From the NCBI GenBank assembly GCA_963969365.1, contig OZ017759.1, positions 1,364,001 through 1,428,000 on the forward strand: a stretch of DNA of 64,000 bases. The letters are read 5' to 3'. Each line of letters opens with the position of its first letter. Within the stretch, counting starts at the first letter, position 1. A program made the position numbers and the translations under genes. Shown here one piece after another: positions 25,770 to 63,361 of the stretch. The DNA comes from Asterochloris sp. CNOR1. Its lineage: Eukaryota > Chlorophyta > Trebouxiophyceae > Trebouxiales > Trebouxiaceae. The notes under the pieces were generated by a model. The model was not told the DNA's origin and did no database searches. It saw only the letters and a list, made by a program, of their open reading frames with translations.

Positions 25770-28372
25770 ATGCCGCTTCTCAAAGGAAACATTGAGCTGT
25801 GGAGAGATCATGTTGACGCTCTGAAAGTACCCCGTTTATTGCTGCAGATGGTTGTCGGGCAGTCGGAGCGATGGGCTGCCCGCAGCCTCACACCCCCTCC
25901 GCACAGCTACCAAAAGCTCAAGCGTTCACTGAGGAACAAAGCCCTTGCTGCTGCAGAACATTATTGAGGCAGTGGAGAGTGTGGGGCGCCTGCAGCGCTC
26001 CGACCATATCCGTAAGGCAGTCAACTACGTCAAGATCCTGCTGGAGAAGGGGGCAGACCCGAACGCCAAGGACGAGTGGGGCATTGGCTATGCCATACAC
26101 TATGCCATCTGGACAGGCAACATGGACCTCATCAGGCTGCTGGCAGACCACGAGCACTTCAACCCTGATGTGGATACAGGTGAGGCTTGCATGCAAGAGA
26201 GGTCAAGTGTGTTCCCAGGGACACGAATGCACTTTGTGAGGCTGATCCAAGCCAAGCACAACGTTCTATGCTGCATAGTACGTCTTCTGATGCATGGAGC
26301 CTCAAGTCTCACAGTCCTGAAGCCCCGAGCTGTCTCCAGCAATGATGAATGCAATTGCTTGCTGTAGTGCTGCAGGGCCAGACGGTCATGCCGGCAAGGA
26401 CACAAGCCTCTGCTCTCTTGATAAGTTGTTCACGCAAAACATCAGACAAGCAGTACCCTCTCCCACTCCCCTGTGCTCCTGGCCAGCCCAGCCAACCCCA
26501 CAATTGTGCAGCTGGTGATCTTGGAGACGCATCATGTGCACTGCAGGGCAGCCCTGTTAGGGATAGTGTGCCGTCTCAGACGCAGGCATGATGTTCCTCT
26601 GCACATCCTGCAGCCCTCTGCTCACCCCTGCCGTGGTCATGCTGCAGGACAGCTCCCTGCAAGGGGTTGTGAAGTCTACAACCCTGCCGGGAATGGCAAA
26701 TCTGGCTCACTTCGACCTCGCTCAAGCGATGCACTCCCTCCTGTGCTGTAGGCCAATTCTTCCGAGGGTATGACCAATACACACGGGCCATCCACATGGC
26801 AGCATACGAGGCTCGACCAGACCTGATGCGCCTTCTGCTGGCCAAAAAGGCCAACCCCGAGAACCCGGACCGTAAAGGACGTACGCCTGTGCAGTGCCTG
26901 CTGGCACCCAGCTTCTTTGATGGAGATGCCCTGCATGGGCAAGCGCACCACGCAACCCTGCGGCAAAGGCAGACCCTGCAGGTAGATGCTGTGGTTCTTT
27001 CTGTTGTTGGTCTTCAAAGTTTAAGCTGCTTGACTGGGACGCCCTGCAAGGGCAAGTGCACCACATGATCCTGCAGCAACAGCAGGCCTGCAGGTGATGC
27101 TGCGTTTTTCTGCTGGTCTGCTTCAAATGTGCCAGCTTGAAGGATGCGGACGCGCTGCATGGGCAAGAGCACCATGCCATACTGCAGACATTGCAGTAAG
27201 AGGATGCACCCAGGCCTGCCTGCAGAGTGGAGAAGGGATGTAGGGGTGTTCTGTCTGCCACAGCAGATGTAGTGCAACGCGCAGGAGGTCCCTGCCTGCA
27301 TGCCCTGCCTGCATTGGGTGCATGCAGAGGCAAGACCTGCAGATTGCCAACTTCTCAAAGCAGCAGTTGGGAGTTGCAGCAGCAATGCTTGCCCTTGTGC
27401 AGACAGTGCAGTCAGCAGGCTGCCTTGCGCCAGCCTGAATCCTTCCCTGCACCCCTGAATCAAGCATTGCTATTGCTGTACAGATTCTCATAGAGCGTGG
27501 AGCTGACGTGAACAAGCCCTTCCTGCCAGAGCAGTTGCCGGCCATCCCGTTCAAGGAGCTGGTCAAGCAGTGCCCCACAGCACTACACCTGGCCTGTGAT
27601 CGAGGGGACCTCGAACTAGTCAGGGTAAGCATGTTGACACCCAGTGGCTAGAATTGAAAGCTGCTGCCCAGAGGATGCAGAGCTGTTGGCTCAAGTCACT
27701 CTGTCCCTGCCGTCACATGGCTTTGCACCCAAGTGAGCAACCTTGCCCTTTCCCAGAAGTCGGCTGTGCCTCTTTCGCCAGGGTCCTCCAGCCATCCCCA
27801 AGCATCCCCCCACTTCCCTGCTGCAGGTGCTGCTGGGCGGTAACAGGGTGGACATCAATGGCGAGGCCCACCAGGAGACGGCCGCCAGCCCCCTCCAGAT
27901 TGCAGTGGAGCGTGGGGACCTGGACATAGTCAAGTGCCTGAAGGCCGCGGGCGCCGATGCCGAGCTGGCCCGCCTGACCGTGGCCACGAAGCTGCACAAG
28001 CTCAAGGCGGGGAAGCACAGCCGCAGCTCGAGCGCGCTACAGCTAGGGCATGCGCAGGGCAACGGGCTCCTGCCAGGGGACAAGGGGAAGCAGCCGCTAC
28101 GCAACGGGGATTCCCTGCACCGCGCAACGCGCAGCATGTCGATGAGCGAGCCCCTGCAGGCCCACCTGCAGCGCAGCGGGTCTGTGAGCAGCATGGCCAG
28201 CAGCAGCGATGCGGGTGCAGGCTCCAGTCGCAGCTCCAGCTTCACGAGCGCTGCAGGTGCTGTGCAGAGGGAAGGCGGGGGCCAGCATGGCACCAGGGCC
28301 CCGCCTCTACCTCGCTCTGGGGCTCGCGTCCCGCTCTCCTCACGAGCCCAGACTGTGATGACTGCCTCCTAG
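25770..28372 (+). CDS. ankyrin-repeat protein
   Basis: Six exons join to 1260 nt (419 residues): 25770-25826, 25957-26179, 26752-26981, 27343-27405, 27484-27624, 27827-28372. Ankyrin repeats include YVKILLEKGADPNAKDEWG with AIHYAIWTGNMDLIRLLADH, then AIHMAAYEARPDLMRLLLAK, then ILIERGADVNKPF with TALHLACDRGDLELVRVLLG, and PLQIAVERGDLDIVKCLKAAG. Ankyrin repeats mediate protein binding and no catalytic domain is visible. The last 180 residues are Ser/Gly/basic-rich and low in complexity. The first exon (MPLLKGNIELWRDHVDALK) is chosen because an in-frame stop lies before 25957 and this upstream ATG joins in phase 0. The start is moderately uncertain. The third exon ends with DALHGQAHHATLRQ, a unit copied twice downstream. 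Confidence 0.75.
26918..27215 (+). repeat. exon echo: three copies of the ankyrin-gene DALHGQ exon end
   Basis: Three tandem units of about 125 bp encode GDALHGQAHHATLRQRQ, WDALQGQVHHMILQQQQ and ADALHGQEHHAILQTLQ. All three keep the GCNCTGCA-GGGCAAG-GCACCA core. The first ends in a working CTGCAG/GTAGAT donor and the second in GCAG/GTGATG. The third ends in CAG/TAAGAG, which has lost the donor. They could be serial alternative exons or decayed duplicates. Confidence 0.8.
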
Positions 28373-29123: not shown

Positions 29124-32100
29124 TTATCCCATTCCCCACCTCAGCACAGTGCCATCTTGGGCTCTGAGCTCCACAGCAGCTGCGGGGAGAACCTCCACCA
29201 GGCCAGATCCAGCGACAGACCCTTGGCTCAATTGGTAAATCACGCGGCCACTAGCATCGACCAGGACAATGTGCTGATCTGCCAGGGTGACCTTCATGAG
29301 TACCACGCCCACTGCTGCGCCATTGAATGGGTCGTACTCCACCAGCATCTTGCATCCCACCTGGCCTGCAGGACATCACAGCAGCTATGGGTCGAGGCCG
29401 GCACTTGACTTCTGCCAGGGTGGGGCTGCAAAAAGCCAGGCAGGGCAGCACCACACTGTCTCAGGGACTCCAGGGCATCAGACGGCATAATCGGCCCTGA
29501 CGCTGCTGGGGTGTCAGGCCTCAAGGAAAGTGCAGCAACAGTGCTGCAGGCACGCGCCCAAACAGGCAAGCACAACTATCCCAGGCGCAGACTGACCCGG
29601 CACATCTTGCAGGCACAGGAGGCTCTGCCCGCCGATGCGCAGCCACACATCTGAGGTGCCGCTGCTGCCGCTTTCACTGTGGCTGCTGGGGCCTGCTTTG
29701 CGTCCAGAGCTGGCCCTTTCTGCATCTGCCTGGGAGCCCAGCGACTCCTGGAGCTGGTGCCAAACCGGCACTGGCAGGGGTATGCGACTGGGCAAGCTGT
29801 CGCCTGGTGCATTCCAGCTGCAGAGGCGGCTGAGCCAGTCAATGGGTGCTGAGGGGGAGGCTGATCGGAGTCCTGCCGGCCGTGCACGCTGCTGGTACAT
29901 GAAGCAGACTGTGCTGCACGGCAGGCCTGCCGCTGCTGCCACTGATGAGCTGCACATGCAACAATCCTGGTACGCAGAGCCCTGTGACCGCACCTTCGCT
30001 GCAAGTCGAGCCTTAGCTTCCCAGTGAGGTGGTCCACTGTGTACAGCTTGAACCCCTGCTGATCTCCTGCAGCGATGCAACAGAGGTGATCCATCTGCAG
30101 GAGCACAGATGAGGCAGCTCGGCCAGGCAGCACTGGTGGGGCAGCACACTGGAAGCAGCACCAAACTGGCTTTTCAGGCAAAAGGGCAGCACAGGTGAAT
30201 GTAAAAGGCACCCCTGGTGAGGCAACCAATGCAGGCTCCTGAGTTGGCCCAACTAAAACTAGCAAGCAGATCAGCCACCATGATGGAGGCAGGATTTGGA
30301 CTCACCTTCAAGAAAACGTGAGTGCCGGCAGCCATCACGATTGTAGTCACCTGCATGAACGCAGCTGCTATTATATCCGGGGTTGTGGAGCATGCACAAT
30401 GCTTGGAGGTATCTCAAAAAGCCAGCGGTGCAGGCCATGAAATGCAGGACGGAAGTGCCAGCTGCTGGTTGCTGCATGGTGGATACAGCTACACTGCTCA
30501 TGGAAGGGCCTCTCAGGCAGTACGAATCACATTATTTGACATCACTGTATGTCAGGTGGTTGGTTGTAATCATTGAGGCTTGCCCAAGGGTGTGCGGAGT
30601 AGCAAGCAGCACCGCTGAGAGCAAAGTATCATGGCACAAAGAGAGCTTGCTGCTCAGCAGCTTGAAGACGTCCCCTGTGCACCCACCAATGACGCCTGTG
30701 GAGACAAAGGTTGTCTGGCCCACATGCGAGAGGCTGTCATGGTAATCATGGGAGAGGTGAAAATGCCCTGCAAGTATCAAAATCTCTTCAGGTCAGTAAG
30801 AGACATGGCTGCCTTGTGACATGCTCTCTGCAGGGCGCAGCAAAGCAGAGACTCTGTCAGAAAGGACCAGCAGCAACAGGCCTGCTCGAATGAGGATCAC
30901 TTGGACAGCACACCAGGCAGAGTGCCTGCTGGAGTGGGGCACAGCGCTGCCTTGCGTAGCCAGCATCTGACATATTTTGGGCATATCCTGACCAGACGGG
31001 GTGGCAGCAGAATGCATGTGCTTGCTTGCCTGAGAACCAGAGCTTGATGTTTGGGTGCTGGCGGACTAGTTGCATGAAAACGCCTGGGTTGCTGCTGTGG
31101 TTGAGCCAGGCGCAGCGATTCTTGACGTGCACAGTCTGCGGTGGGCAGCAAACGATGCGCAGGGTCAGGGGGCCTGCCGCCTTGGTACGTTCCAGTGGGC
31201 AGACACGACACTGAGCAGCACACAAGGCAGGTGAGCCACCCGTTGCTTCAGCACAGCATCAGTCCAGATTGCCACAGGACATCCCTGCAGCATGGCAAAA
31301 CCCTACCAAGGCCCAGTTCAAGCTCACCAGCAGCACCTGCCATGAGTGGTGCATGTGTGGTCCAGGCACAGGACATCTTTGCACCGCAACACAGCTCTGC
31401 CCGGCCCTGCCAGGGTTCGCCTGCAGCACCCCGACCCAAGACACCATGTGTGGCGCATGCATGACACCAGGCAACAGGCTTGGAGCCTGCCCTGGGCTGC
31501 CTGACATGTGATGCCACAGCGCAGCCCTGCCAGGGCTCACCGGCAGCACTTTCAGGCCCGACCCCATGGGCGGTGCATGCGTGAACATGAGGACAGGGCG
31601 GCTGCCAGCTCTCTGCAGCGTGTCCCTCAGGAAGTCCAGCTGCTTGTCATCAATGTGGACCTCATGCACACTGCAAGGCAGACAGACCAATGCTGCAGCT
31701 GGGCTCACGCCAGGAAGGACATGCCTGGCAGCCAGACAGGGAGGCTGCAGCTGCATGGGGCATGCTGCAGCCAAGACAGGAGTGTGAGACCGAGCTCTGG
31801 ACAGCGCTACACATCAACAAAGGGACCCTGCATCAGGCAGGGCACTCTGCTGGGCGCCTGTGAGCAGGCTCTCAAGAAAGACAGGGCGGGTTGGCAAGCA
31901 GCTTGACATGGTCAAGCTCTAAACGTGGCTAGGGGCGGCAACTGGACAGGGCTTGGTGCGGCCCATCTACAAACAGGCTGACAAGTTGGGGGCCGTCACC
32001 AGATAGAGGTTATGCATCATGCACAACGAGACAAGGCGATGGCTATGGGAGTTGTGCTGCGCAGGCGGCTCAGCACACAGGTCAATGCCCTCACATCCTC

Positions 32101-52400: not shown

Positions 52401-54169
52401 GCTCTGAGCTCGTTGCCTTCAGGCATGGGCGGACCTCTGTACTCCACTGGACGTCCTGGCGCTATCCTGCAGGCTTGGGTGATGTCTTTGCCCTGCTTGA
52501 AACGACTTCACCCAGGCAGAGGCAGTGTGCATAGCCTTCAGGCATGGGCAGTGCTCTGTGTTTCATTGAACGTCCTGGCTCTATCCTGCAGGCTTGGTTA
52601 ATGTCTTTGCCCTGCTTGAGACGGCTCCACCCAGGCAGAGGCAGTGTGCCTGGCCGCAGTGCCCAGACAGCTCAGCATCCTTCGTCCGTCCTGCAGGCAT
52701 GGGTGATGTCCTCACGCTGGTGGAGAAGGCAGAGTCTGCCATCAAGGCAGACGATGCAGAGGAGATGACCAAGCGCATGATGCAGGCCAAGTTTGACTTC
52801 AATGATTTCTTGAAGCAGATGAAGATGATGTCCAACATGGGCAGCATGGGCGCCGTCATGAAGATGATGCCAGGTCTGATTTTCTGTGGCGTCCTGCTGC
52901 AGCCATTACGCCTCCCATCGGGCAGCGCTCAGCTGCCTGCGCATTGCCCCTGCTGTGATTCTCAGGGGTGCCCTCCCGGTCAATGCAGCGCACAAGCAGC
53001 TCAGTGTGCAGCATGAGAGCCGCTGCAAGATGATGGCGAGGCTGTTTCTGTTCCGCCTTGTGAGTATCTGGAGGGCTTGCACCAGCCTGCAGTCGCCTTG
53101 CGCAGGCGCTTGAGCTCCCAGTCCTGTGGCATTTGCTCGTCAGGAAGCCTTCCTGACGACCAGCTCAAGCAACATGAGCCCACTTGTCGCTAGGGTGGTC
53201 AACGCTGCACTGTGCGGACCAGCTGGCAAATACGCTGCATCTTCGTCTGCCATATCGTGCCTGGGCTGCCTGGCTGACAGGAGTGTGACATCTGCACAGC
53301 TTTTTGTATATGCCTGCAGTAAGCATGCAGCCGCAGCAATCAAGACATGTTGCAGGCTTGTCAGGGTCAGTGGCCTGCACCCCTTGGGTGCTCTGCCAAT
53401 GCAGGCCTGCTTTGCCTGCAGATATGTACAACATCAATCACAAGCAGCTGGCTGAGGCTTTCACACCCGACTGTTGTTTGAACAGCGCCGAGCTTCCAGC
53501 GAGGCCATGTATGGCCACCGATACCACCAACAATGTTCAACAACTCTGCCTGCAGGCTTCAATAAAATCAATGACAAGCAGCTGGCCGAGGCGGAGAAGC
53601 AGATGAAGAAGTATGAGGTCATGATCAGCAGCATGACCCCTCAGGAGCGTTCCACCCCAGAGCTGTTGGCAACAGGGCCCAGCCGGCGTCGGCGCATTGC
53701 CAGGGGCTCTGGCAGAAAGGAGCTTGACGTCACCAACATGGTGGCCCAGTTCTCAGCCATGCGCAGCCGCATGCGCGACATGAGCAAGATGATGGCCATG
53801 TCTGGCGGGCGAGGTGGGTCCAGGCTGCCAGCTGCACCTGAAAAGTTGGGTGCCACACCCAGTGGCTCAGATAGAGCCCTTGCAGACACTCCTGGCAGCA
53901 GTATTGGCTTTGTGCTAGTCTGCCACTTTTGAAGTGCGCAAAGGTGGCCGAGTCTGCCCAGCTGCTGAGCACTGCATCTGTCAGCTTGGTAGTCCTGTGC
54001 CTGTTGCCTAAGTGACACCCAGTCATGGCTTGCAGGTCTGCCAGCCATGAACGACAAGGAGATGATGTCCGCCATGTTGGAAGGGCAGGGGGCCCGCAAG
54101 GTCAGCCGCGGCAAGGTGCGCCGGAAGAAGGGGCAGAGCAAGGGCATGCGCGAGCTGGCAAGGCTGTGA
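49421..54169 (+). CDS. SRP54: chloroplast signal recognition particle GTPase SRP54
   Basis: Nine exons join to 1692 nt (563 residues): 49421-49624, 49743-49904, 50282-50458, 50998-51225, 51428-51623, 51848-52003, 52697-52873, 53556-53813, 54036-54169. Exon 1 plus the start of exon 2 encodes about 80 Ser/Arg-rich residues resembling a transit peptide ([20 protein letters not shown]). The N domain starts [13 protein letters not shown] and contains [18 protein letters not shown]. The G domain has [36 protein letters not shown] and [14 protein letters not shown]. The M domain has [10 protein letters not shown], Met-rich helices and [12 protein letters not shown]. The [11 protein letters not shown] and LEPFYPDR signatures match bacterial and chloroplast rather than cytosolic SRP54. 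It should deliver thylakoid proteins cotranslationally and, in plants, light-harvesting proteins with cpSRP43. The C-terminus has a basic VRRKKGQSK segment. Exon 3 ends at a GC donor. Confidence 0.93.
50400..50585 (+). repeat. exon echo: copy of cpSRP54 exon-3 end
   Basis: Exon 3 ends with CTCATGGGCAGCAAGCAGGA followed by GGACC and CCCCCAG. About 130 bp downstream (50524-50584) the same run recurs as AAGCTGATCATGCTCATGGG followed by CAGCAAGCAGGAGAAGACC and CCCCCAG. The copy lacks the GCAAGC donor, having GCTGCG instead. Confidence 0.8.
50875..51080 (+). repeat. exon echo: decayed copy of the cpSRP54 P-loop exon head
   Basis: Just before exon 4, 50894-50950 reads GGTCCTCGGGTTGTGGGCAA followed by CACCACAGTTTGCGGCAATCTGGCTCTGCCC. 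It parallels the real exon's GGCCTCCAGGGTGTGGGCAA followed by AACCACAGCCTGTGGCAAGCTGGCTCTTGCCC. The Lys-Thr-Thr codons of the P-loop have mutated, so the copy could not bind GTP. Confidence 0.8.
52430..52735 (+). repeat. exon echo: three copies of the cpSRP54 exon-7 acceptor and head
   Basis: Three units of about 115 bp each carry TCCTGCAGGC followed by a GGTGATGTC-type head: 52465 (CTGCAGGCTTGGGTGATGTC), 52585 (CTGCAGGCTTGGTTAATGTC) and the real one at 52691 (CTGCAGGCATGGGTGATGTC). The first two are nearly identical over CACCCAGGCAGAGGCAGTGTG. Confidence 0.85.
53405..53600 (+). repeat. exon echo: copy of the cpSRP54 exon-8 head
   Basis: At 53414-53460, GCCTGCAG is followed by a frame [12 protein letters not shown]. 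At the real exon (53556), GCCTGCAG is followed by [14 protein letters not shown]. The 23-nt CAAGCAGCTGGC core is shared. Confidence 0.8.
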
Positions 54170-55887: not shown

Positions 55888-58800
55888 ATGCCGCCGTGGT
55901 TCAAGACAATGCTGCAGCAGACGTGATCATCATCATCATCATTTGGTACAATGCCATTCAGCCAATCTGGCTGAGTGCTGCCACTACCTGACTCTCGTTC
56001 TGTAGGCGCTTTGTGGCATTTCAGCTGTTTGTGGGCCGAAGCCTCTGGTCCCTTCTAGCTGACCTGCAGCGGGGGCTATGGGCAGCAGTTGGCTGGTTCA
56101 GCGCGCCAATCCGCTCTGGCAGGGTGCAGCGACTCGGCCGAGGCTGGGTCACCATTCACAGGTTTCACATTCTTGTTGGTGAGTGCTGGCGGCTGCATCA
56201 GGCTTCATCATCAACGTGAGGCAAGGTGCCGCAGGGGCATGTTGTACCTTTACCCAGTGGGTGATGGCGTCTGTATCAGGCCCCAACTCCTTGCCAGTCA
56301 ATCTAAGGCAGGGTGCAGCGAGTCAGCAAAGGTTGGTTCCCACCATTTCATCAGGATCACATCTCTGCTGGTGAGTGCTGGTGGCTCTGTGAGGTCACAG
56401 CATCTGGTTGCCTTCCCCACGGCCCTCAGATGGCGTGCACCAGCTAGGCAGTGCAGGTCCGGGCTGCATGAGCCAGCAGAGCATGCAGCCACACCGCGGA
56501 GCAACTGCTTATGCAGCAGTTTCACTTTGGGGACACCAACAGGCTGCTGGTGTGCTGCAAGCTCGGAGTGTCCCCACCTTCTTGCGTTGCTTGCTGAAGC
56601 GCTGCTGCTGGCCCAGAGTCTCCCACTCAAGTGGGAGGGCGCCGGCGACCATGACGCAGTATGGGCGCCACAGTGTGGACCTGACAGCTGCATGCTTTCC
56701 CCTTGCTTCCGGAGCGTTGGCAGCCCTGACAGTTTGGTCAATGCAATCCTACCACGAGCTGCCTGCTGTTCACTCCCCACACTTCTTGACCGCTGGCAGC
56801 CCAGACAGTTTGGGTGATCATTTCCTGACTTGAGGTGCATACTGTCCACACCCCACACTTCTGGAGCGTTGGCAGCCCTGACACTTTGGGTAACCCATTC
56901 CTAACACGATCTGCATGCTGCTTCCCCTGCAGTCGCTGGAGCGCTGGCAGCGCTACTCCGATATGGGCGCGAAAAGCTGCGCGTCATGAATGACCCGATC
57001 TACCGGCGGCGCTTGGATCTGCAGAGGCAGCTCAAGGTGTCCTGTGCTCTACCTGCGCTCTGAACTGCACACTGCCATGCATTGGGCCTGCAGGGCCCAT
57101 ACAGCACAGTGTGAGACTGAATGCAGCAAGGCAGAGGACCACAGTTGCCTGCTTCTCATGACTGCCTGTGCAGGCACAGCCGTTTACCCTTTGCATGCAT
57201 CAGATGAGGAGAGAGGCATGGCCACAGATGGGCTGGAATGAGGCCAGACACTTCAGGCGCCTACAGGGCTGGGGCACAAGGGCACCTGGGGTGTGCAGGA
57301 GGCCTGGCATGCTAGGGGCCCTCAGCTCCATATGCTCAACAGGCGGAGCCAGGCCTCCCACTGTGCTAGCATGGTAGCTGCCGAGCCTCGACCAAGCTGG
57401 CATTCTTCCTTTGTGTAGGAGGCCAAGCGGTTCGAGGCCTGGCAGGCAGCTGCTCGGGAGCTTAACACGCTCAACGGCCTGAGCCAGGCCTCTCTGAATG
57501 CGCGCTGGAGCAGGGAAACACGGCTGTACGATCGCAAGCTGCTGGCGCAGAGGTTGGAGCATCTGAGGGCAGTGCGCAGCCAGGGGAACATCCAGCGCAT
57601 GCTGTTCGCAATGCGTCAGGACCTGCTACGCAACCTGGGCAACATGACCAACAGGTGAGCTTTGTGGATTGCCTGACAATGAGCTTTTCACACGCGCTGC
57701 TGGTGCAGTGCACCAACACATACTCGTGAGCACCCTTGTCATCAGCCAGTTCTGCTGCTGGTGCAGCCTATAAGCTGCTTCTGTTGTAAACAGAGTGCCA
57801 GCTGCAGCATAGCTGGCCTGACATCACAGCAGCTATGTACTGCTGTTGCATCAAGCAGCATGCAAATGGGGCTACCTGCTGCAGTGAGCTGCATGGGTAC
57901 TTTTCTGCAGTGCCACAGCTCATCAGATGGCTGTGCAGCCCGGCTGACACCAACACAAGAAACCTTGGAAGTTCCACCTCTGCTGTTTGCAGTGAGCTGT
58001 AGGTGTTCTCCACCCTGGTGCCCCAGCTGCTGTTCACAGCACACACCTGGAGCCTCACAAGAGCAATTCAACTGTTTGCATCGAGCTGCACAAGTCCTTT
58101 CACAGGCTCCATCCAGCCAGGAGGGCATGAAGCAGCAAGAAAGATGCAGCCAAGCATTGCACTGAGCTGCTGACTGTTCTCCTTGCTGCAGTGAGCTGCA
58201 TGAGTACTTCACAGAGGTTCCCCAGCCCATCCGAGAGTACATTGAGGAGGTCAAGTCCATGCTGTGGCTGCTGACAGATTTTGAGGACCCCTCCATGCGG
58301 GTCAAGGAGCGTTGGGAGTTCATCAAGCTCACGCGACACGCCTTTGGACGCACAGCCCTCGTCCTCAGTGGGGGTGGGGCCCTCGGCGCTTTTCACCTGG
58401 TGAGGCATACTTTGACAGGCATTGTGCTTCACCAATCTGCCAGGGTGGCCCTAAGGGAGGCTGCAAGCGACCCAGGACTGATAGTTGCATGTAAGTCAAA
58501 ATTTGATTGGCACCCCGAAGCTCATGCGGTACATGACTGGGCAGGCACTCCTGGCACTGAGCGAGGAGGGGGCGTTGAGGAGTTCCCGCCTGGTGGGCAT
58601 CTGGCAGTAGCTGCCAGCTAGTGGGCACAATCTGTGCGAGGCCTTTTTCCTATGGGGCCAAGCACTGGGGCGTTCCACCTGATGAGTGTTTGGTGGGGGC
58701 TGACGGGTGCATGCAGGGGATGCTCCTGCACTGCAGCATGGAGCTCTTGCAGACTCCTCTGGGCGGTCAGCCTTGGTGCCTTGCGGGGCCCTGGTGGCAC

Positions 58801-61800
58801 TCTGCGTGGTAAGAGGCGTCTGAGATGCACAGCCTACATCAAAGTGCCAGATCTGCCCCAGTTCAGGCAGCAAGGGCCCTTACGCAAAGCAGCTGCCTGT
58901 CACAGTCAGTGCTTGCTCAGCCAGGCAATGCCTGGGCTGGCTGTGTTTGGGGACAGTGGCTTTGGCATAAGAGTGCTCCACCTGTTGCGCAGCAGCTGTG
59001 AGCTGGGGCTGACAGGTCTGTGCAAGGCCTGTACTCAACGAGGGCGGGGGCTTTGGGCGATCCACCCAGTGACGGTCCAGCATGTGTGCACAGGCAGATG
59101 GCATGACCAACGGGAAGTTCCCTAGTGTCAGGCCTCTGGCAGCAGTTGCTTGCTGGACAGAGGCTATTGTGCAAATCAGTGCTGCCTTGAGAGATGCAGT
59201 GGATTGAGACGCGCATCACAACAAGCATGCCAGCGGCCGGCTGCCTCAGCTTTTGCTGTCTTAGCCTGGCATCTTGCGACAGTGTAGGATGCCGTGTCAC
59301 CTCTGTCATGGCCTGCTGCAGGGCGTCGTGAAGGCCCTGTATGAGCAGGGACAGCTGCCTAGGGTGCTGGCAGGCAGTAGCGTTGGCGCTATAGGTGAGA
59401 ATGCGTGAGGTGTCAAACATGTGCCGACCCCCTCAGTTGCAGGCCATGTCATTGGGCTGGATCTCTTCTGCTCACTCCTCTTGGCCTTCATACGCGTGAG
59501 CCACAGGTGCCAGACGCTGCTGCACCTATCCCGTTCATGCTAGCCTGGCAGCGCTGTGAGGCACACAAGTACTGTGCTAAAGTTATAAAATGGGGTGGTG
59601 CAGTCAGCTGTGCCTGTCACCCTCCATGCAGTGCTGGTGCTCCTGCATGTGCAGGGGACGGCGTGCACGGTTGCCAATCTTGCTGTGCCAGCTGCTCCTC
59701 GTTCTGCTTACTTTGGACATGTAGGAGCAAATGGCCTGTCGCAGATCATACCTGTCCTGTGCTGCAGTGGCAGCCATCATTGCTGTGCGAGACGAGTTCC
59801 AGCTCCATGACCTGATAGAGAAGATGCACGAATTTGACCTCAGTTTCTTCAGCAACAGCACCAGCAAGGAGTTTCTGAAACACTTCCTGCTCAAGGGAAC
59901 CCTGCAGGTGCGCCCTCTGCGCAACCCCTTGATCAGCTTGTTGGCAGCCAGCCGCGCCTTTATGAAGCAACTCTGGACATCTGACTTCTGTGCAGCCTTC
60001 ACCTTCAAGAGTTGGCTGAGACGCTGGCTCAGACGCGGCTGCATCCACCCTGCAGGATATGGAGGTGCTTCAGAAGAGGCTGCGGCGGCTGCTGGGTGAT
60101 GTGACATTCCTCGAAGCATTTAATCGTTCAGGTATGTGCAGCACTGTCACTGCTCATTGCAGTCTGTGTACATGTAGCGCGACATGCAGGGGTGCCAATT
60201 TGTTGCGTCTATGCAACTAGCTGAACACTGCCAAGCGGCAGGACTGCTGGCTCCGCTGCTGCCTGCAACAGTGATGACCAGCCAGCCAGCCAAAGCAAAG
60301 CCAGGCCAGGTGTCTCAGCTCTTGCCTTGTCTGTGCAGAGATGCTTGCTTCTCTGGCTGGGTATGTCCCGAAGCGATGCAGACTCCTCATTAGTCCAAGT
60401 TTTGCAGTGAAATTCATATCTTCTTGCGCATGCAGGTCGCGTACTAAATGTTGCTGTCAGCGCAGCAGACACAAATGAGCCCCCTCGAGTACTGAACTAC
60501 CTCACAAGTCCCAACGTGGTCATCTGGAGTGCAGTGTCCTGCAGCAGCGCCTTCCCCTACCTGTTCAAACCGCAGGAGCTGCTCAGCAAGGACGAGAAGG
60601 GAAACATGTGTGGGTGAGTTACTGTGCTGGCCACCGTGCAGCAGCATGATCGCCCCTCTGTGCAAGCTGCAGGAGCTGCTGAGCCAGGATAAGAAGGGCT
60701 CCTTGTGTAGGGGAGCCTCTGTACTGTTCAGAGTAGCTGAATGCCTGTGTGTGTCAACCACATGCGCAGCTCAGCACAGATGAGAGTAGGTGCAGATCTG
60801 TGGGTGAGACGCGTGGGTTTCCGGCCCTCAACAGTGCCCAACAGCAGCTGAATGTTTGGAGCAACATCTGAGCCCTTCCTTGGAGCCAAGGAGTTTGCAA
60901 GCGGTGGCAGCATGCTGTATGCACCAAAGACATGCATAGAAGAAGCCATACAGGTCTGATGTAGCTGCCATTGCTTCAGGCTGGCATGCTGGGAGGCCAG
61001 AAGCCTAACACGAGTGTTGCACCCTGTCAAGCCTGCTGCTTCTCGCCTTCACATGTGTCGCTGCAGGTGCATGCCTGAGGTCATGCCAGAGTCGGTGCGG
61101 CGCTCTGGCTGTACCTGTGATGTTGCCACCTGGCACCCTGTGCCCTGCACCTCATAAATGCATGCCTGAAGCCATGCTGAGACCTCCTCACATACCCCTG
61201 CATGTCCTAGAAGGAGTGCCTGGGACTATCCGTCCTGCCTCTGCAGGTGCACACGCTGAGGCAATGCTGTAGTCTGCACAGCAATGTTGTCCCTGCCCTA
61301 AACAAGCCCACTGAGACTCTGCTACTATGGCCCCGCAGGCGCATGCCTGAGACCATGCCTGCGTGTGTCAGTCGCTGCTATGCAACAGGCCCCTCCTGAC
61401 AGTCTGTGCCCCACCACTGCAGGTGCACGCCTGAGGCCATGCCTGAGTCGGCGCGGCGCTGGGCAGACGGCTCCCTCGAGGAGGACCTGCCCATGCGCAC
61501 CCTGAGCGAGATGTTCAACGTCAACTACTTCCTGGTCTCCCAGACCAATCCCCACATCGTGCCCGCACTAAATTTGAAGAAACACTTCAACCGCAAGCTG
61601 GGCAACCTGCTAGAGCAGGAGTGGAAGCACAGGCAAGCATATGGGCGGAAGCTAAGGTTTTGACAGCACTTTGTGTAGCATAGTCAATGGTGCTCACTTG
61701 AAGGGGCAGCCTGCTGGAGCAGGAGTGGAGGAGGCACAGGCATGATTTTGAGCTGCAGGGACGCAATTGGCAGATGCATGCTGACCAAATTGCTGGAGCA

Positions 61801-63361
61801 AAAGTGGAAGCACAGGCTGGCTGCAGTGTAGATGCATTGGGTGCTGGGGGTGGCATGAGGGGGGCTGCACATGCTACGGTTCTCAGCAGATGCATGCTGC
61901 TCAACCTGCTGAGGCAGCAGAGCAAGCACGGGCAACAGGGCGTGCCGTGCAGGCTGCCTGCGCGAGGTGCCTGTGCTGGCGGCAAAAGCACGCCTGCTGC
62001 AGCGGCAGTCGAGGCACAGGTGAGCAGGTGCTGCACTGCATGCGGATGAGGGGAGAAAGAAGCCCACTGTGCAGCTGCTGGCGGCAGCAGGGTGACAAGC
62101 TCTGCTGTCCTGCCTCGCTCCACTTAAAATAGCCTCTTGCTGCTCATCGCAGGTGCCAGCAGCTGCAGCTCATCGTGCCCCGGCCCATCGCGCGGTGGCT
62201 CAAGGTGCTCAGCCAGCCCTGGGAGGGGGACGTGACAATGGTGCTGCCCAGCGCCTACAGCCAGATCAAGAAGGCCATCACCAACCCCACATCTGCAGAC
62301 CTGCAGGAGGCCTGCCTGCAGGCAAGTGACTGGCTGCGGGCATTCGGCCGGCACAACTGGGCAGGCAGCCACCCAGTGATGCCTTATGTGTGCATCTGGC
62401 TGCATCATTGACTGCCAGCATGAGGCGTGAAGGCGGCATCATCGTTCGTGGCTCATGGTCCAGCAGGTTGTGGTCCTGGCCTACTGACTGCAGCAGACCA
62501 GTCTCAAGGGCAGCCTTCCAAGGGTCAGAAGCACCAAAGCAATGGACCTCACCTGCACGGGGAGCAGCCTGCTTAGGCCCAGGCAGCTCATGTAAAGCTG
62601 AATTGGCTGACGCAGTCAGCGCGCGATGGAGCAGCAGGCCAGGACCAGAACGGCATGAGGCACTCACTGGGTTGGGCCTGCAAAGGGCCAGGAGAACACG
62701 TGCTCAGGAAACTGCTGCTGTGAGCTCCCACGCGTGCACCTGCAGGGGGAGCAGTCCACGTGGGCCAAGATGTCGGCCATCGAGTGCAACTGCGGCATTG
62801 AGGTCACCCTCGACCGCTGCCTGCGCAAGCTGGAGGCCCGTGCCCGTCAAGCGCGCATCAACGAGATCCAGCTTCGGCGGATGGCGGGCATGCCACGCTC
62901 TGCTGCAGCAGAGGAGGCTGCAGCTGCTTCAGGGCAGCCCTCTCAGGAAGCCCAGGAAGGTAGGTGGGTGGTCTTGCACTGAAGACATGGATCATGCAGG
63001 GCATACATCAGGAGCATGACTGCGGTGTGTGGCAGGAAGCTCCAGGTCGGCAAAGGAAGCTGCGCCTGCTGCGGGGCAGCCTTTCAGTAGGCTAGGGATG
63101 TTGTCTGGCATCAAGCAAGCCCTGCCTATTGCTAGGCACATTGCAGGAGCATGGCTGGGCGATGTGACCGGGATGGCCCTCCTCAGCTCTGGTAGAGAAC
63201 GATCCCAGTGGGGGGGCCCAGCCCTTGCTGGATGCCTCAAGAAGCTTGGTGTGCAGTCCTCACTGCAGGGACGCCTGCAGGTTGCAATGCTGCAGCAGCC
63301 GCTGTCGGTACAGGCCTCCTGGGCCACGTGGGAGGGTGCGCTGCCTGCCCTTCAGGGTTGA
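55888..63361 (+). CDS. SDP1: SDP1-type patatin-domain triacylglycerol lipase, 3' end uncertain
   Basis: Exons: 55888-55922, 56006-56178, 56933-57036, 57419-57654, 58192-58399, 59322-59394, 59768-59907, 60056-60131, 60436-60613, 61423-61632, 62153-62321, 62746-62959, then either 63036-63361 (713 residues, stop at 63361) or an alternative 63668-63809 exon that runs off the right edge. The N-terminus has a hydrophobic segment ([20 protein letters not shown]). The patatin domain has the oxyanion GGG (243-245, [12 protein letters not shown]), GSSVG with the nucleophile Ser272, and [11 protein letters not shown] (Asp423) completing the dyad. Family blocks [42 protein letters not shown] and [14 protein letters not shown] match plant SDP1. 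SDP1 hydrolyses storage triacylglycerol at oil bodies. Two introns start with GC (61633 and 62322). The C-terminal tail is Ala/Ser-rich. Confidence 0.88.
55925..55942. repeat. (ATC)n microsatellite in SDP1 intron 1
   Basis: Five or six ATC units lie directly after the first donor. Confidence 0.8.
56090..56400 (+). repeat. exon echo: copy of SDP1 exon-2 end and donor
   Basis: The exon-2 end (AGGGTGCAGCGACTCGGCCG ... TTGGTGAGTGCTGGCGGCT) recurs at about 56308-56395 as AGGGTGCAGCGAGTCAGCAA ... CTGGTGAGTGCTGGTGGCT. It includes an intact GTGAGT donor. A weaker copy starts near 56220. Confidence 0.75.
56690..56960 (+). repeat. exon echo: four copies of the SDP1 exon-3 head
   Basis: Four units about 80 bp apart each contain a GAGCGTTGGCAGCCCTGACA-like core: 56711, 56785 (GACCGCTGGCAGCCCAGACA), 56862, and the real exon at 56938 (GAGCGCTGGCAGCGCTACTC). 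All are preceded by a C/T-rich stretch, but only the last has a CTGCAG acceptor. Confidence 0.85.
57690..58225 (+). repeat. exon echo: up to five copies of the SDP1 exon-5 acceptor and head
   Basis: The real exon begins CTGCAGTGAGCTGCATGAGT at 58186. Upstream copies are CTGCAGTGAGCTGCATGGGT (57879), TTGCAGTGAGCTGTAGGTGT (57988), TTGCATCGAGCTGCACAAGT (58076) and a short TTGCACTGAGCTGCTGACTG (58156). The first two retain the CAG acceptor, so they are possible decoys. They lose the reading frame within about 30 nt. Confidence 0.85.
58365..59065 (+). repeat. exon echo: copies of the SDP1 GGG oxyanion exon end
   Basis: The real exon end GGGGCCCTCGGCGCTTTTCA with CCTGGTGAGG (58376-58405) recurs as GGGGCCAAGCACTGGGGCGT with TCCACCTGATGAG (58656), as GGCTTTGGCATAAGAGTGCT with CCACCTG (58970), and as GGCGGGGGCTTTGGGCGATC with CACCCAGTGACGG (59043). 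The series spans most of the intron. Confidence 0.7.
60570..60720 (+). repeat. exon echo: copy of SDP1 exon-9 end
   Basis: CAGGAGCTGCTCAGCAAGGA followed by CGAGAAGGG (60572-60600) recurs as CAGGAGCTGCTGAGCCAGGA followed by TAAGAAGGG at 60670-60698. The copy's donor site has mutated from GGGTGAGT to AGGGGAGC. Confidence 0.8.
61060..61450 (+). repeat. exon echo: five copies of the SDP1 exon-10 acceptor and head
   Basis: Five units about 85-90 bp apart: CTGCAGGTGCATGCCTGAGG (61064), a TCATAAATGCATGCCTGAAG copy (61152), CTGCAGGTGCACACGCTGAG (61243), CCGCAGGCGCATGCCTGAGA (61335), and the real CTGCAGGTGCACGCCTGAGG (61417). Four keep an AG acceptor. The first also shares GAGTCGGTGCGGCGCT with the real exon, then breaks frame. 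Confidence 0.9.
61590..62025 (+). repeat. exon echo: four copies of the SDP1 exon-10 end
   Basis: The real end (CTGCTAGAGCAGGAGTGGAA followed by GCACAGGCAAGC) is followed by CTGCTGGAGCAGGAGTGGAG with GAGGCACAGGCATG (61711), TTGCTGGAGCAAAAGTGGAA with GCACAGGCTGGC (61791), and CTGCTGAGGCAGCAGAGCAA with GCACGGGCAAC (61906). A short fourth copy near 62010 has CGAGGCACAGGTGAGC, whose donor is a canonical GT. Confidence 0.85.
62885..63080 (+). repeat. exon echo: copy of the SDP1 exon-12 end
   Basis: Exon 12 ends [20 protein letters not shown]. The segment from 63040 encodes [17 protein letters not shown], with the shared GAAGCTGC-CCTGCTGC-GGGGCAGCC core. This raises doubt whether 63036-63361 is a true last exon. 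Confidence 0.65.

Follow-up and report, generated by a model that had tools for sequence, protein, structure and literature searches.

In the tandem-duplication (AGGT) model of intron gain, reviewed in PMC3443670, an exonic sequence is duplicated locally within a gene, an intron is made and splicing restores the message; both PMC3443670 and PMC4974935 cite Gao and Lynch 2009 as well as Hellsten 2011 for it. A related event was described for the potato RdRp gene, where tandem duplication over an intron-exon boundary made a new intron; the duplicated segment covers the 3' part of an intron together with the start of the following exon and brings spare splice signals with it, and the new intron joins the exonic piece of the upstream copy to the intronic piece of the downstream copy (PMC4974935). 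Tandem duplications of ~100 bp to 10 kb, with a median of ~1 kb and microhomology at the joints, are reported for HELQ-deficient worms, where they arise upon failure of homology-driven repair (PMC8654963). Introners (cf. PMC9860276) are another known system. They insert their own copies into many genes.

Many of the introns analyzed here carry decayed copies of the ends of their neighbouring exons, which we refer to as echoes. The duplications resemble that in the potato gene in their extent and in the spare splice signals they bring along, but the outer sites are apparently used here, so that an existing intron grows, and there are many old cases rather than one young one (PMC4974935). Local tandem duplication within genes and restoration of the message by splicing are likewise shared with the AGGT model, which duplicates exonic sequence to make an intron, whereas here existing introns grow (PMC3443670). 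The worm duplications are likewise direct and tandem, with microhomology at the joints, and their smallest sizes (~100 bp) overlap with ours; however, they come from a mutant and have a larger median (PMC8654963), whereas HELQ/POLQ-type domains are weakly matched in the present genome. Introners, too, add sequence to genes that is then removed by splicing, but the similarity seen here does not extend beyond the adjoining exon and intron. A search for homologous introns among genes, as for introners, revealed no such families: it gave 2 BLAST rows of at least 45 bits between blocks in 314 kb, with other-gene introns matching at ~0.2%. Minisatellite arrays consist of serial copies of one unit, which some of our arrays resemble (e.g. 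76 bp at 56706-56920), but the copies described here are few, strongly diverged and straddle exon edges. Tandem duplication is a known process that is here unusually visible. Among the matches listed, judged by title and the start of the abstract, there was no genome-wide account of exon-edge copies in introns; the 2009 work of Gao and Lynch, going by its title, may cover related ground.

The genome, which its genes and introns mark as eukaryotic and which probably belongs to a green alga, comprises 56.4 Mb in 21 contigs. Of it, 314 kb were analyzed, namely the window, i.e. the whole 64-kb stretch of DNA presented above (contig C14, 1364001-1428000), and 250 kb more. The sample forms three blocks of 164 kb on contig C14 (window included), 100 kb on C1 and 50 kb on C5. 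Gene models were predicted ab initio, and are partly wrong, by a hidden-Markov gene finder trained on the same three blocks, using 710 exons from ATG-starting models with at least 450 coding bases. The finder predicted 78 genes in the three blocks, one with an internal stop; 66 genes with at least 300 coding bases, containing 699 introns, entered the echo tests. The model of SDP1, an SDP1-type lipase gene, has Pfam hits to DUF3336 and Patatin; that of SRP54 matches SRP54 and SRP_SPB, that of the ankyrin gene Ank and that of the phosphoesterase gene Metallophos. HRD1 was split by the finder but finds support in the synoviolin N-terminal domain of one model and a RING domain in the next, and the names BRCC36-like and TPPP-like were given in the first-pass annotation by sequence reading.

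That annotation had reported copies of exon ends in adjoining introns and proposed comparing exon ends with their own introns, with shuffled introns and with the introns of other genes. Its observation held: when exons of 60 nt or longer in the three blocks were represented by their 60-nt ends and aligned locally, 88/1011 exon ends scored at least 18 against their own adjacent intron, compared with 5/3033 for shuffled introns and 2/1011 for introns of other genes. In another run on the ab initio models, 35/631 exon heads and 56/627 tails reached score 18 in their own intron, whereas heads and tails matched other genes' introns in ~0.2% of 6291 and 6251 comparisons, respectively, and the reverse complement of their own intron in 0.6% each. 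The excess of exon-end copies in own introns is thus confirmed. The per-block counts behind the 88/1011 (52/519, 14/336 and 22/156 at a score of at least 18) imply that regions differ. With 90-nt ends, leaving out introns shorter than 70 bp, we found 112 echoes across 104 introns. Overall, 84/646 introns carried an echo, about one in eight in these 314 kb of one genome; the fraction was 18/138 in the window and 66/508 elsewhere in the three blocks, and the window is therefore ordinary in echo density. Across all blocks, 42/684 introns had a minimum p<0.005, against ~4.5 expected.

Self-comparison by BLAST, which uses no annotation, gave 33 direct pairs in the window at E≤0.1, 32 of them less than 400 bp apart; the 9 inverted pairs comprised 5 palindromes at distance 0 and 4 pairs more than 1.5 kb apart. 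Over the 314 kb, at a minimum of 40 bits and a spacing of 50-400 bp, there were 92 direct pairs and 0 inverted ones, bearing out the earlier description of local duplication in direct orientation. The copies also have a defined geometry. Exon heads were found in the near (upstream) intron in 33/466 cases and in the far (downstream) intron in 2/466, while tails were found in the near (downstream) intron in 51/466 cases and in the far (upstream) one in 4/466; exon middles were copied in 4/315. Dispersed copying would not fit an arrangement with heads upstream and tails downstream, whereas tandem duplication across one junction must give it. Periods fell within 60-240 bp for 67/76 echoes, and five near full-length units had periods of 67 (100% identity), 56 (94%), 119 (87%), 391 (83%) and 93 bp (81%).

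The SDP1 gene had been described as carrying such copies in at least eight of twelve introns; the copies are present, but the count was somewhat high. We delimited 10 introns (56006-62959) after discarding four predicted exons that lay within introns and were judged false, and after adjusting the ends of two exons visually, and found echoes in 6 of them (five at p≤0.004, one at p=0.013) and none in 4; the null consisted of 522-532 exon ends of other genes, making 0.0019 the smallest possible p. The serial arrangement reported for these introns was seen as arrays of head and tail copies, often ~90 bp apart. The exon at 61423-61632 (plus strand, gene model) has given rise to copies of its head on the upstream side and of its tail on the downstream side. 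Its first head copy, 61067-61143 (+), is 83% identical to exon nucleotides 1-85 (score 33, p=0.0019) and is preceded by an intact CTGCAG acceptor; BLAST pairs 61061-61104 with 61417-61460 at 91%. Three further head copies lie at 61159-61181 (+), which is short and degenerate, 61247-61282 (+) and 61341-61395 (+). Tail copies follow the exon at 61704-61739 (+; 94% over the last 33 nt, p=0.0019), 61776-61815 (+), 61892-61929 (+) and 61993-62019 (+), the last with a score of only 15. At the exon 60436-60613, whose donor was placed by eye, a donor-spanning unit of exon tail and intron start (60540-60629, +) pairs in BLAST with 60637-60726 at a period of 97, 72% over 90 aligned nt; the latter segment (+) is a decayed tail copy (score 34, p=0.0019) in which the donor GT appears lost by eye, and a second tail copy lies at 60720-60803.

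Elsewhere in the gene, the tail of the exon ending at 56178 is copied at 56293-56366 (+; 82%, score 31, p=0.0019) with the donor kept, as judged by eye, corresponding to the BLAST pair 56118-56194/56307-56386. Nucleotides 16-74 of exon 57419-57654 recur at 57299-57357 (+; 78%, score 28, p=0.0019). The head of exon 58192-58399 is copied at 57885-57927 (+; score 23, p=0.0038), with more head copies at 57993-58027 and 58083-58118, and its tail at 58737-58806 (+; score 21, p=0.013), with weaker copies at 58518-58573 and 59001-59066; parts of the intron after this exon were called exons by the finder and judged false. In the intron leading into the exon that starts at 56933, self-BLAST detects a degenerate tandem array with a 76-bp unit (56698-56954, +), and the alignment runs on into the exon; the head of this exon alone, compared with its own intron, was not significant (p=0.24).

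A spread of the pattern across unrelated genes had also been claimed, and echoes do occur in several, more thinly than stated. With introns called at a minimum p<0.005 against a null of 300 sampled exon ends, possibly including the gene's own, echo introns numbered 3/12 in the BRCC36-like gene, 1/7 in the ankyrin gene, 1/14 in the phosphoesterase gene, 1/6 plus 0/2 in a second model for cpSRP54, and 0/7 plus 1/11 in the split HRD1 models; the TPPP-like gene had none in 22 introns at this threshold. BLAST and sequence inspection placed an array of period 113 in the ankyrin gene (26917-27187, +) and a duplication of period 120 in the phosphoesterase gene (31404-31584, minus strand), both read as donor-spanning. 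Self-BLAST found an intronic tandem duplication of period 119 and 87% identity away from junctions at 52415-52655 (+), which we ascribe to the same process. A larger tandem duplication, at C14 1321104-1322401, appears as a 933-nt self-match of period 391 at 83%, both copies being partly exon in the models.

We favor the reading, at a probability of roughly three in four, that echoes are relics of ordinary short local tandem duplications hidden by splicing, with no special junction-copying system. Duplications, in most cases of 60-240 bp and at times multiplied into small arrays, would probably originate from repair or replication and strike regardless of gene structure. One that falls over a single splice junction would leave the mRNA unchanged if the outer sites are used, as we presume, and the intron would gain one unit, consisting of an exon-end copy and a spare splice site. 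The spare copy would then drift, presumably neutrally, while the true exon would be held by selection. Since one copy is frozen in junction-spanning pairs and both drift in intron-intron pairs, the former stay recognisable longer, and this asymmetry would make the pairs look like echoes of exons. The copies are local and in direct orientation, occupy the near intron, have counterparts duplicated wholly within introns, and display neither coding constraint nor splice-site preservation. Against the tandem reading, its agreement with the observed rates needs ages skewed towards old for which there is no explanation, and intron/junction-spanning pairs are more numerous than random placement predicts: of 94 pairs, 39 were of this kind (19.9 expected), 12 were intron-intron (24.1 expected) and 5 intergenic (4.1 expected). 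Intron growth, suggested earlier, is a likely consequence, as echo-bearing introns have a median length of 416 bp and the others 198 bp, although longer introns also offer more room for copies.

The twofold excess of intron/junction pairs could alternatively reflect a junction-anchored process, for instance RNA-templated or splice-site-targeted, which would place copies of exon ends, splice site included, in the intron next to them. Such anchoring, which the first-pass annotation had proposed, agrees with exon ends being duplicated more often than intron interiors: among 60-nt sources, local duplication was detected for 24/282 heads and 34/291 tails, against 17/282 for acceptor-side intron, 12/291 for donor-side intron and 13/240 for mid-intron. 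With controls at 0.5-0.6%, however, duplication of intron interiors is about half as frequent as that of exon ends and far above background, indicating that a general local process exists in any case, and direct repeats at a spacing of 50-400 bp also occur in introns and intergenic DNA rather than being restricted to junctions. Relative to exon ends, the observed rates were 0.57 (0.29-0.97) on the acceptor side, ~0.37 (0.15-0.69) on the donor side and 0.51 (0.22-0.91) in mid-intron.

Whether these ratios can arise without anchoring depends on the age distribution used. A random-duplication simulation with uniform ages predicted mid-intron duplication at ~2.2 times the exon-end rate, compared with 0.51 observed, and did not fit. 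After this mismatch, ages were limited manually to 0.12-0.5 or to 0.18-0.5 substitutions per site; the four settings used predicted 0.35-1.39 for mid-intron and 0.10-0.66 for the junction-side introns, no single setting fitting all three rates. In a fitted simulation, duplications fell at random, copies decayed neutrally, the exon stayed frozen, and ages were set by the identities of exon-end pairs alone. At 0.25 indels per substitution, approximately the measured rate, it yielded 0.38 (0.16-0.62) for acceptor-side, 0.34 (0.15-0.75) for donor-side and 0.68 (0.25-1.21) for mid-intron, with which all three observed rates are compatible, the intervals being wide. At indel rates of 0.10 and 0.18 the mid-intron prediction rose to 1.2 (0.6-1.7), above the observed 0.51, with overlapping intervals. 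The fit favors old ages, some of the weight falling in bins with chance matches only. Simulations tend to give more mid-intron pairs than observed, a point in favor of anchoring. Most old-age simulations yield intron-internal pairs that are slightly more numerous and less alike than the real ones; mid-intron pairs, with a median identity of 0.84, are no less identical than exon-end pairs (0.82), whereas the four simulations with ages from 0.12 or 0.18 give 0.77-0.81. Because intron interiors are duplicated as well and the unanchored simulation is in keeping with the observed rates once ages are fitted, anchoring on junctions is not needed.

Duplication of a full tandem unit would predict homology beyond the junction, on the intron side. 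Among confident echoes (score at least 22, no more than 6 nt from the junction) it was present in 9/32, compared with 27-47%, depending on indel rate, in simulations of full tandem units; at a score of at least 18 it was present in 11/69 (25-43% simulated), and in a broader set in 12/87 (31-44% with full units), both lower than simulated. Copying of exon sequence only would leave ~3% in simulation, below both 12/87 and 9/32, which argues against anchored copying. Some high-identity copies without intron-side homology do suit it: at an identity of at least 0.88 the homology was seen in 1/10, against ~0.7-0.9 simulated, several of these being matches of 20-33 nt, and in block C5 a 59-nt head copy of 92% identity stops sharply at the junction. 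Taken with the rates, this leaves junction-anchored copying unlikely.

The copies are mostly old. Only 2/94 pairs reached 95% identity, both noncoding, though such pairs are the easiest to detect, and the age spectrum is skewed towards old. One intronic 67-bp unit is 100% identical, which implies that the process was recently active at least once; its match extends over 71 nt and so exceeds the period by 4 bp, an overhang of the kind expected from microhomology. With so few young pairs, the earlier description of the process as ongoing is weakly supported. The scarcity of young copies, together with good copies that stop at the junction, would be explained if exon edges were copied by a junction-recognising process of low fidelity, perhaps by way of RNA or an R-loop, whose products would be diverged from the outset; we consider this variant improbable.

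A further possibility is that the copies are by-products of intron creation through tandem duplication of exonic AGGT segments. In five introns the copy junction lies no more than 8 nt from the opposite splice site, the exon tail resembles the 3' end of the intron at a score of at least 12 in 3/565 cases (control 0.2), and the exon head resembles the 5' start of the intron at a score of at least 8 in 10/573 (control 2.5). Two of the best cases, in the ankyrin and phosphoesterase genes, nevertheless look like false exons on tail copies within longer introns when judged by eye against known homologues, and most echoes have their copy deep within the intron (median P/intron length 0.35-0.38). Intron creation of this type may account for a few introns, and as an explanation of the echoes in general it is very improbable.

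A functional role of the copies, in which they would act as decoy splice sites or supply alternative exons, had been put forward as well. In its favor, some copies keep the AG or GT, and the finder sometimes called copies exons. Among copies no more than 3 nt from the junction, AG was kept in 14/28 heads and GT in 16/37 tails at a score of at least 18, and in 12/17 and 8/17, respectively, at a score of at least 22. Combined, the dinucleotide was kept in 30/65 (score at least 18) and 20/34 (at least 22), no more than the ~64% that identity predicts, the position of the junction in the copy being extrapolated. Differences between copy and exon were almost even across codon positions 1, 2 and 3 (0.20, 0.19 and 0.24), and 209 of the 289 gaps were single-base and thus break the frame, so that the copies do not look coding. 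These results run against decoy sites or new exons, making functional retention highly improbable, and they agree with the earlier description of copies that reach the junction and subsequently degenerate, losing frame or splice site. Repeat pairs within the same exon numbered 3, and the period was divisible by three in 2 of them, too few to assess an in-frame filter.

Accidental resemblance, low-complexity words in common and assembly error can be set aside: CTGCAG-like words abound in the genome and chance may account for a few short matches of high identity, but the shuffled and other-gene controls refute this as a general account, and the ~80% identity of the copies is unlike collapsed or repeated reads.

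Loss of HELQ or POLQ as a cause of the duplications is not suggested, as both domain families give weak matches on contig C16. There, POLQ_helical and HTH_61 match weakly at two loci, near 393,000 and near 2,220,000, with one of the four matches over the cut-off; on these domain matches, the loci are perhaps POLQ- and HELQ-type genes.

If echoes are indeed relics of tandem duplication, a single genome shows how splicing hides small junction-crossing duplications while introns lengthen by one unit after another and thereby keep a record of them. With the exon frozen, each duplication has a reference copy, which could allow rates of mutation, indel formation and duplication to be estimated from one genome. 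The copies also mislead gene finders, and several were apparently called exons here. False exons appear to be present in our predictions, some sitting on the echo copies themselves; predicted exons on or beside copies, judged false by eye against known homologues, are those at 58545-58592, 58737-58808, 27094-27115 and 31328-31420 in the window. Automatic annotation of such genomes may contain false exons on echo copies too. The splice consensus, for which the figures may be inflated by the C-A-G preference with which the predictor started, is very strong at the 3' splice site in the three blocks (CTGCAG/G, with T, G and C each at ~95% at positions -5 to -3), and donors of the predicted introns in these blocks are mainly G/GTGAG.
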